Source: Microcoleus vaginatus HSN003 (GTDB lineage Bacteria > Cyanobacteriota > Cyanobacteriia > Cyanobacteriales > Microcoleaceae). Taken from it: a stretch of DNA of 64,000 nucleotides. Numbering within the stretch: the first letter of the stretch is position 1; each line of letters begins with the position of its first letter. The DNA is taken from positions 62,001 to 126,000 of the forward strand of contig NZ_CP031705.1 of the NCBI RefSeq assembly GCF_022701255.1. The letters are read 5' to 3'. Positions 12,022 to 38,707 of the stretch are shown here, in pieces. The translations under genes and the position numbers were made by a program. The notes under the pieces were generated by a model. That model was not told where the DNA came from. It saw only the letters and a program-made list of their open reading frames with translations, and ran no database searches.

Positions 12022-12124
12022 TAAGCTGTTGTGCATTTAAATTGTATTTTGAGGGCGGGCAGGATGCCCACCCCACAAGAGTGAAAATTTATTTGACCAT
12101 GCAATTTAAAGGCGGATTAGCTTA
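12022..12124. mobile_element. Miniature inverted-repeat element, family A, copy 2
   Basis: A 103-bp element from TAAGCTGTTGTGCATTTAA to AATTTAAAGGCGGATTAGCTTA, with the core GGGCGGGCAGGATGCCCACC in the opposite orientation to copy 1. It begins 17 bases after the YqgF-like stop and could supply a terminator hairpin. Confidence 0.65.
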
Positions 12125-27504: not shown

Positions 27505-27948
27505 TTACTGATTTTTTACCCATTCCCGGAATTCTCGCACTGCTGCGGTTGCGCCTGTAGTTTGACAGGAATAGATAAATTCGTCAACTTTTGCAGTCGG
27601 TAGCATCTGACATCTTGCACCATTCTCCAGAACAGGCAAGATGCCTGTTCCACAACAAGTGCATTTTCTTGTGGGGTGGGCATCCTGCCCGCCCATAGAA
27701 GGCTTATCGAGAATGGTGCAAGATGTGAGTAGCATCGGGAAAGCCAGGGAAATTTTTCACTCGGCATATTCGCCATTTTGTAATTGATAAAACTTGATGC
27801 TTCGTCCGTCGTACCGCCAAGTTTCTGCTACGCCTAAATCTACATATAAATTTAATTGATTTAAGGAACTGCTGATAATATCAATTAACTGCCAACTGAT
27901 ATTTGGCAGTGAAACTCGCTGTTCGGCGGGCGTTGATATTGTTAGCAT
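27505..27948 (-). pseudogene. Uma2-family (DUF820) pseudogene with deletion, stop and element insertion
   Basis: The minus strand from ATG 27948 encodes EQRVSLPNISWQ, the start of a Uma2 protein, which jumps directly to IDIISSSLNQLNLYVDLGVAETWRYDG, a motif normally ~110-120 residues later; so the centre is deleted. A TGA (27757-27759) follows the GEYAE motif. A 121-bp miniature element then sits at 27608-27728. Removing it plus one 8-base duplicate restores ISLAFPMLPTAKVDEFIYS and then AVREFREWVKNQ, the family's C-terminus, in the same frame. A small inverted repeat CTGCCAA/TTGGCAG (27889-27909) marks the deletion joint. Confidence 0.85.
27608..27728. mobile_element. 121-bp miniature inverted-repeat element (family B) with 8-bp target duplication
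   Basis: Perfect 18-base terminal repeats ACATCTTGCACCATTCTC (27610-27627) and its complement (27709-27726) flank a core with GGGCATCCTGCCCGCCC. GTAGCATC directly repeats at 27600-27607 and 27729-27736. A second copy of identical length lies at 38508-38628. It encodes no protein. Confidence 0.88.
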
Positions 27949-38425: not shown

Positions 38426-38507
38426 GTATGGCGGGACAGGCGATTTTAGATTTTAGATTTACTCTGATATTGCTTGTCACGTTACCAGCCATCATTTCCT
38501 GTAAAAC

Positions 38508-38628
38508 TGAGATGTTGCACCATTGTCAAGAACGGGCAAGATGCCCGTTCCACAAAGAGTAGATTTTCTTGTGGGGTGGGCATCCTGCCCTCCCAAAAAA
38601 GGATTATTGAGAATGGTGCAAGATGTGA
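38508..38628. mobile_element. Second 121-bp family B miniature element
   Basis: The left end TGAGATGTTGCACCATTGTC and right end GAGAATGGTGCAAGATGTGA match the ends of the element at 27608-27728, the core GTGGGGTGGGCATCCTGCCC is the same, and the length is identical. The left terminal repeat has diverged at two positions, so this copy is probably older. No clear target duplication is visible. Confidence 0.8.
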
Positions 38629-38649
38629 GGTCAAATCAACCTGATAACG

Positions 38650-38707
38650 TTTGTAGTGAGGACTAAAATCCTCTGAAAATACCGAGGACTTTAGTCCTCA
38701 CTACAAA
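38650..38707. repeat. Near-perfect 58-bp palindrome, GGACT..AGTCC family
   Basis: TTTGTAGTGAGGACTAAAAT and its complement ending ACTTTAGTCCTCACTACAAA form about 24 bp of stem around a short loop. It lies between convergent genes and directly follows the family B element by 21 bases. It may be a bidirectional terminator. Confidence 0.8.

Follow-up and report, generated by a model that had tools for sequence, protein, structure and literature searches.

A miniature transposon of Microcoleus vaginatus HSN003 with DDE insertion-sequence ends and a core of REP hairpins that were probably exchanged in place

A 123-bp element lying within a Uma2 gene remnant of Microcoleus vaginatus HSN003 is best read as a two-layer miniature transposon, in which the ends of a DDE insertion sequence (IS) enclose a REP doublet whose REPs are exchanged in place; we put the probability of this reading at about 75%. 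The outer layer consists of the ends (CTGAGATSTTGCACCATTCTC) and the 6-bp target site duplication (TSD) of the insertion sequence, with TYRG-TTWWAA-CYRA as the target, in a unit shortened to about 123 bp; full-length copies, found in a few congeners and not in this genome, presumably supplied the transposase that moved it in trans. The inner layer, as sequence and adjacency show, is an inverted REP pair tagged TTGTGG (iREP and REP, about 13 nt apart), and REPs of its type stand beside a resident RAYT gene. At insertions shared with a congener, the scaffold is kept and the REP loops and tags differ in blocks, with the same few versions recurring. Such block changes may reflect exchange between REP copies, by template switching or by non-reciprocal conversion of short tracts, and RAYT cleavage possibly assists the exchange.

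The genome is a single contig of 6.76 Mb, and the window analyzed here is the stretch of 64,000 nucleotides that forms its bases 62,001-126,000. The features considered, in window positions, are as follows.

27505-27948, minus strand: Uma2 gene remnant that holds the insertion, with an in-frame internal deletion, an in-frame stop and then the insertion; intact relative PF05685
27601-27606, no strand: left target site duplication, TAGCAT
27607-27729, no strand: MITE copy 1, 123 bp, CTGACATC...GATGTGAG
27607-27627, plus strand: left terminal inverted repeat of copy 1, 21 bp, matching the right end at 20 of 21 bases
27631-27655, minus strand: predicted REP hairpin 1 of copy 1, TTGTGG tag and AACAGGC-ATCTT-GCCTGTT (minus-strand reading)
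27669-27693, plus strand: predicted REP hairpin 2 of copy 1, TTGTGG tag and GGTGGGC-ATCCT-GCCCGCC
27709-27729, minus strand: right terminal inverted repeat of copy 1, 21 bp
27730-27735, no strand: right target site duplication, TAGCAT
38507-38629, no strand: MITE copy 2, 123 bp, the same site being filled in G024 and G012
38531-38555, minus strand: predicted REP hairpin 1 of copy 2, from the hairpin search
38569-38593, plus strand: predicted REP hairpin 2 of copy 2, from the hairpin search

The feature is real and, taken alone, is an ordinary MITE. Bacterial MITEs are short and non-coding, with the inverted ends of an IS, a target duplication and many copies (PMC3733652, in the portion drawn on here). 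The element has terminal inverted repeats (20/21 bases in copy 1, 17/21 in copy 2), a TSD (53 of 112 elements have a perfect 6-bp repeat) that is accompanied by empty sites, and no transposase of its own, and a related autonomous IS of 1,388 bp has the same ends. A preliminary description of the window had reported a 121-bp element with perfect 18-base terminal repeats. These are present at 27610-27627 and 27709-27726, and the exact repeat GTAGCATC flanks the 121 bases at 27600-27607 and 27729-27736; the full element is 123 bp once its terminal C and G are counted. The second copy of equal length at 38508-38628 was likewise confirmed, though its ends are weaker and its flanks agree at only five of six bases (GTAAAA/GTCAAA). 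Copy 2 is the older of the two: G024 and G012 carry a MITE at the same place.

Searching the genome for the 18-base ends, as had been proposed, revealed many copies. With up to three mismatches there were 279 sites (131 + 148), against 3 (1 + 2) for a reversed control, and we therefore do not regard the element and its flanking repeat as chance; nor was chance upheld as the source of the flanking 8-mer match, exact 8-mer repeats at a 129-base spacing occurring at 4 of 63,863 window positions. BLAST with the element, with 40 of its 338 candidates scored, gave at least 74 matches in this genome, among them single copies matched on both strands. Within 858 kb of sampled sequence (the window and 40 stretches at roughly even spacing) we counted 23 paired elements, plus 38 ends without a partner. 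The element belongs to a large non-autonomous family of DDE transposons. At one locus (L135, 8888-9272) three copies stand in tandem with the target 8-mer GTTTAACC between them, which may represent repeated insertion into one site or a duplication there.

The register of the TSD was determined on 112 distinct elements from this genome and its congeners. With the C and G counted to the element, a perfect 6-bp direct repeat was found in 53 of the 112, compared with 121 of 12,432 mismatched pairs; with C...G inside the element, the 7-bp register held for 4 and the 8-bp register for none. Among the 53 elements with a perfect 6-mer, the inner base was C/G and the outer genomic base not in 27 cases, while the reverse was seen in 3. 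An earlier set of 56 copies contained 11 that were perfect in the 8-mer register and 21 that were perfect in its inner six bases, with C at position -1 in 94 of the 112 end positions. Because the 6-bp register prevails and the inner C/G outnumbers the reverse, the TSD of copy 1 is the 6-bp TAGCAT, and the C...G is the element's own. The 8-base flanking repeat described previously is exact, but as a duplication it was rejected in favor of the 6-bp register: it is made up of TAGCAT, the element's terminal C or G, and one matching target base on each side. The target consensus, TYRG-TTWWAA-CYRA, is palindromic. We also considered this palindrome as an independent genome-wide repeat and rejected it; it occurs at 14 places, each on both strands, and the control is uninformative because a palindrome matches on both strands.

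Together, the TSD and the empty site show that the whole unit inserted into Uma2. A search returned 30 loci, one of them in the genome itself, and all 10 of the relative loci compared were uninterrupted at the insertion site, the empty target reading GGTAGCAT in 8 of the 10. In seven relatives (G019, G002, G013, G024, G005, G012 and G016) the alignment extends for several hundred bases to the left and right of the site, and the Uma2 gene of G019 is intact (208 aa; PF05685, 84.7 bits), its reading frame running straight across the site. Two further sites are empty in the HSN003 genome and filled in G012, with flank overlaps of 6 and 5 bp. These loci bear out the proposal that a miniature element transposed into Uma2, as well as the empty alleles expected in relatives. 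The gene copy in the window is a pseudogene as described, but it has also undergone an in-frame internal deletion of about 312 bp and carries, upstream of the insertion, a stop codon in frame, and the insertion itself keeps the frame open, adding 43 codons without a stop. For these reasons the insertion should not be called the cause of the pseudogene, which it alone does not explain. The account in which a MITE with an 8-bp TSD inactivated Uma2 has the exact repetition of GTAGCATC and the perfect 8-mers of the earlier set on its side; set against the 6-bp register as the family rule, the other lesions of the gene and the open frame of the insert, it is hardly credible.

The mobilizing transposase had been reported as absent from the window, and we found no match to it anywhere else in the genome, where at least two decayed IS pieces are present (2478523-2478620 and 3764545-3764814; 13 of 170 candidates scored). 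A full-length element with the same ends and a transposase, which had been suggested as a check, exists in a congener. Locus L188 of G015 is an intact IS of 1,388 bp with perfect 21-bp ends, without a clear TSD of its own, and with a 373-aa transposase ORF that matches DDE_Tnp_1 at 48.9 bits (cut-off 23); public record JAAUPF010000225.1 has the identical protein, and its ends and flanks are the same. Contig ends in G045 and G042, relatives from other families, pointed first to a transposase and from there to a Pseudanabaena plasmid, on which a protein annotated as 'transposase' is accompanied by the same ends; this protein has matches in 4 of the 29 genomes of the genus searched. Of 19 homologous transposase loci examined, 9 have such ends, counting the G015 copy and including Chlorogloea, Pseudanabaena, Nostoc and Leptolyngbya; the Chlorogloea copy is flanked by TTTAAA left and right. 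When 90 bases of the IS end were searched against the whole order, 17 of 388 genomes matched, mostly over short lengths. The likely mobilizing IS was found in congeners only, and we infer that the miniature copies were mobilized in trans.

Like the IS701 and IS4 families, whose NCBIfam models are its best matches, the parent IS has a DDE_Tnp_1 transposase; unlike them, it scores below both curated cut-offs (IS701, 64.2 bits against 170; IS4, 48.5 bits against 115), and we therefore file it under neither. Members of the IS701 family make a 4-bp target duplication, as opposed to 6 bp in this genus; three Pseudanabaena copies of the parent IS group (L186, L201 and L205) have apparent 4-bp duplications (ACAT, ATAC and TTAA). 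A PDB search with the transposase profile gave four matches with E values of 0.38-0.92, which we took as chance. Two other candidates for the parent were rejected. Kilobase-long copies at four unpaired ends (L121-L124) proved to be ordinary host genes, and the only paired copy with a length near 1.1 kb (L132, 17352-18493; G000:C1 about 4537351-4538492), considered as an IS630-type parent, is a MITE copy interrupted by another IS with ends CAGCACTTCCGG and two transposase-like ORFs. We take this interrupting IS to be of IS630 type.

In an alignment of copies, the interior of the element resolves into two hairpins whose tags are conserved (...GCCTGTT-CCACAA and TTGTGG-AACAGGC..., about 13 nt apart) and whose stems and loops vary, and judged by its sequence the interior is shown to be an inverted, REPIN-like pair of GTGG-tagged REP hairpins. 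Two inverted REPs were found in window copies 1 and 2 as well as in the copy alignment, and in the hairpins of the window copies the foot is followed or preceded at 0-2 nt by a GT[AG]G tag. Elements picked in congeners by their ends alone contained a GTRG-tagged hairpin in 13 of 19 cases in G012 (0.1 in shuffled sequence) and in 12 of 14 in G006 (0.0 in shuffled sequence), the cores of the remaining 6 and 2 having none by the same test. A hairpin directly precedes CACAA in 90 of 1,110 words, compared with 0-6 for six permuted words, in stretches that were chosen for end sites. The tag word, CCACAA or TTGTGG, is present in 22 of the 23 paired elements of the 858-kb sample. The same sample has 110 TTGTG[GA]-tagged hairpins, some of them chance hairpins outside elements, and 63 of these lie near MITE ends, in regions that make up 5.7% of the bases. 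Rfam gave only a sub-threshold match to mir-2007 (20.8 bits; gathering threshold 100).

Tagged hairpins of the same type are also found elsewhere in the genome: alone, in tandem arrays, and in three small inverted-repeat elements with different ends, where the tag was seen in 3/3, 4/4 and 2/3 of those found. In other genomes the MITE ends enclose other palindromes, GTAG-tagged ones among them.

Several REP-bearing loci were recorded along the way. REP pairs form tandem arrays with units of roughly 80-90 bp at L238 (2212-2566) and L263 (15730-15999). Elements of 126-127 bp with TA-flanked ends TAGACCTCTTGCAAAA, presumably IS630-like, contain the same kind of REP doublet (L126, 8100-8225; L229, 14831-14956; L241, 15019-15144; L130, 15819-15945). 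In the window, REP hairpins lie in or near another small element at 12030-12116, and also at about 7974, 16606 and 53452; its ends are like TGTGCATTTAAATTGTAT, and it is unrelated to the MITE studied here. A long palindrome of the GTAG-tagged type, TTTGTAGTGAGGACTAAA...TTTAGTCCTCACTACAAA, lies near MITE copy 2 (38650-38707).

The genome has four Y1_Tnp matches, and the one at locus L265 is a REP-associated tyrosine transposase, or RAYT (NF047646, 113 bits, cut-off 80). Adjoining the 3' end of this gene (837-1414 of the locus) are 18 hairpins with the same tag, 11 on one strand with TTGTG[GA]-CACAGGC-ATCTT-GCCTGTG and 7 on the opposite strand with TTGTG[GA]-GGTGGGC-ATCTT-GCCCGCC. The array combines REPs of (A/C)ACAGGC type and GGTGGGC type in opposite orientation, which is the same pairing as in MITE copy 1. 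A RAYT gene is found here with the same REP type beside it, although the exact hairpins differ from those borne by MITEs: no hairpin in the sample was identical letter for letter between the array and the MITE-end REPs. What the two have in common is the tag, the stem core and, in many cases, the ATCTT loop, and from these features and the adjacency to the gene the MITE hairpins would be related to the RAYT. The protein has the motifs DHVH, WQ and YIRQNP. By these it fits the pattern listed for RAYT subclass 2.7, where GT[AG]G REPs flank the gene (PMC6006769). Further RAYT-like genes lie at L267 (1387-2010, minus strand; below the cut-off) and L268 (1393-1932, minus strand; above it), with no TTGTGG hairpins listed within 1.5 kb of either.

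These distributions bear on the simplest alternative, that the element is a plain IS-derived MITE and its palindromes are its own, unrelated to REPs or RAYTs. One kind of tag in 22 of 23 sampled copies is indeed what a plain MITE family would be expected to have. Yet tagged hairpins also occur alone, in arrays, in three elements with other ends and beside a RAYT gene, and in relatives the same ends hold other hairpin families; we consider the alternative quite improbable.

To compare REPs at shared insertions, we used the end sites of G012 (89 + 97 in all, the first part of them with positions) and 91 G012 loci, some overlapping, and looked for matches to both flanks of their elements in sampled stretches of the HSN003 genome; the 80 G012 elements in this matching include duplicates from overlapping loci. 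Among the 19 sites that matched, 16 were filled in both genomes, 2 were empty in HSN003 and 1 was not an element. We excluded L379 (coding sequence) and the two sites empty here, and added copy 2 against L290 by hand, which gave 17 shared insertions. Judged by eye against this one congener, 16 of the 17 have block differences in their REP hairpins, with the ends, spacer and flanks still in alignment; in the remaining pair, L383/L424, the REPs are unchanged save for point differences. The tag changes between CCACAA and GAAGCG (or the complement) in 11 of the 17, and loops change in the manner of AAGAT/TTTCCGG in 6. The entire core is of another REP type in L346/L427, and the main difference is a short tag block in L410/L125 and L384/L264. 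For the 12 pairs of simple length, identity is 87% in the outer 28 + 28 columns and 72% inside. At copy 2, the ortholog in G024 agrees with the window. Outside the set of 17 are a shared-site pair from G020 (L022/L120) and a one-flank pair from G012 (L227/L318) with unchanged REPs.

A control for parallel insertion comes from the ends themselves, compared over 16 pairs (L380, whose HSN003 copy is truncated, was left out). End identity is 0.908 within pairs and 0.753 between them, in segments that reach about 10 bases into the adjacent hairpin in some pairs, and the ends place the true partner above all others in 12 of the 16 testable pairs. Of these 12, 11 show REP replacement. Since the ends identify the true partner in this way, the REPs have probably been rewritten in place while the ends stayed. 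Separate MITE subtypes might instead have hit the same preferred target independently in each lineage; parallel insertions are possible given that the target is a specific palindrome and tandem copies occur at one site, as at L135, and four pairs (L301, L346, in which the whole core differs, L370 and L407) do not rank the partner first. We judge this improbable in view of the pair-specific end variants of the 12 pairs and of L410/L125 and L384/L264, which differ mainly by the short tag block.

A variant REP tag, TCGCTTCA, stands in place of TTGTGG in G012 (L300-L319 and L343-L412), 27 times inside MITEs and never outside, in stretches chosen for MITEs that have only 9 TTGTGG hairpins outside them. 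It occurs once among 224 MITE-borne tags of the HSN003 genome.

If the REPs are rewritten in place, the new blocks could arise without any exchange between copies, the hairpins mutating rapidly as quasi-palindromes corrected within a single element. The loops of the left and right hairpin are often complementary to each other, as self-templating would yield. However, the same replacements, CCACAA to GAAGCG and AAGAT to TTTCCGG, recur at many sites, and self-correction alone is insufficient because it would not make the same new block repeatedly. We regard it as unlikely, and favor exchange between REP copies within a conserved scaffold. Guidance of this exchange by a RAYT is possible in this genome, since TnpAREP cuts and rejoins single-stranded REPs in vitro (PMC8266576, in the part available to us). 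We also entertain, as a tentative and rather doubtful extension, that RAYTs, or another hairpin-specific process, act as 'REP rewriters' that swap loops and tags between copies on single-stranded DNA at fixed sites, so that REP families would evolve in concert, with the DDE MITE family as the main scaffold and carrier of the REPs of the genome.

The element resembles several known kinds of system and differs from each. Like the bacterial MITEs Nezha (of cyanobacteria), NEMIS and RUP, it is short and non-coding, with IS ends, a target duplication and many copies (PMC3733652, same portion); unlike them, it has the REP doublet of a second mobile system, seemingly exchanged in place, and a 6-bp TSD, and it is set apart from Nezha by description rather than by sequence. 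With REPINs and BIMEs and their RAYT (TnpAREP) it shares the inverted hairpin pair, the GT[AG]G tag at the foot and a RAYT gene beside REPs, but here DDE-transposon ends enclose the doublet, which moves with them, and 63 of the 110 sampled hairpins of this tag lie near such ends. In ISs that target REPs, such as IS1397 and ISPpu10, the IS and the REPs are physically linked as well, but the topology is opposite: there the REPs are the target, whereas here they lie inside the element. In the portions of the open-access literature consulted, a scope that leaves most subscription papers outside, we found nothing on REP doublets in DDE MITEs or on in-place REP replacement. What distinguishes the element is that DDE ends and a REP doublet core come together with evidence, gathered one site at a time, that the REPs are replaced.

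The question of whether gene conversion shapes REP evolution was raised as early as 1988, in a review by Higgins et al. (Gene 72:3, by its title in the references of PMC8266576 and PMC3116915). It has been hard to test because REPs move. The REP pairs described here are fixed in place by an enclosing transposon that has ends and a duplication of its own, and shared insertions can therefore be compared site by site; this comparison points to block replacement of REP loops and tags. A single element family would also unite two unrelated mobile systems, DDE and HUH/tyrosine, and the 29 genomes of the genus that were searched offer a ready test bed for REP replacement.
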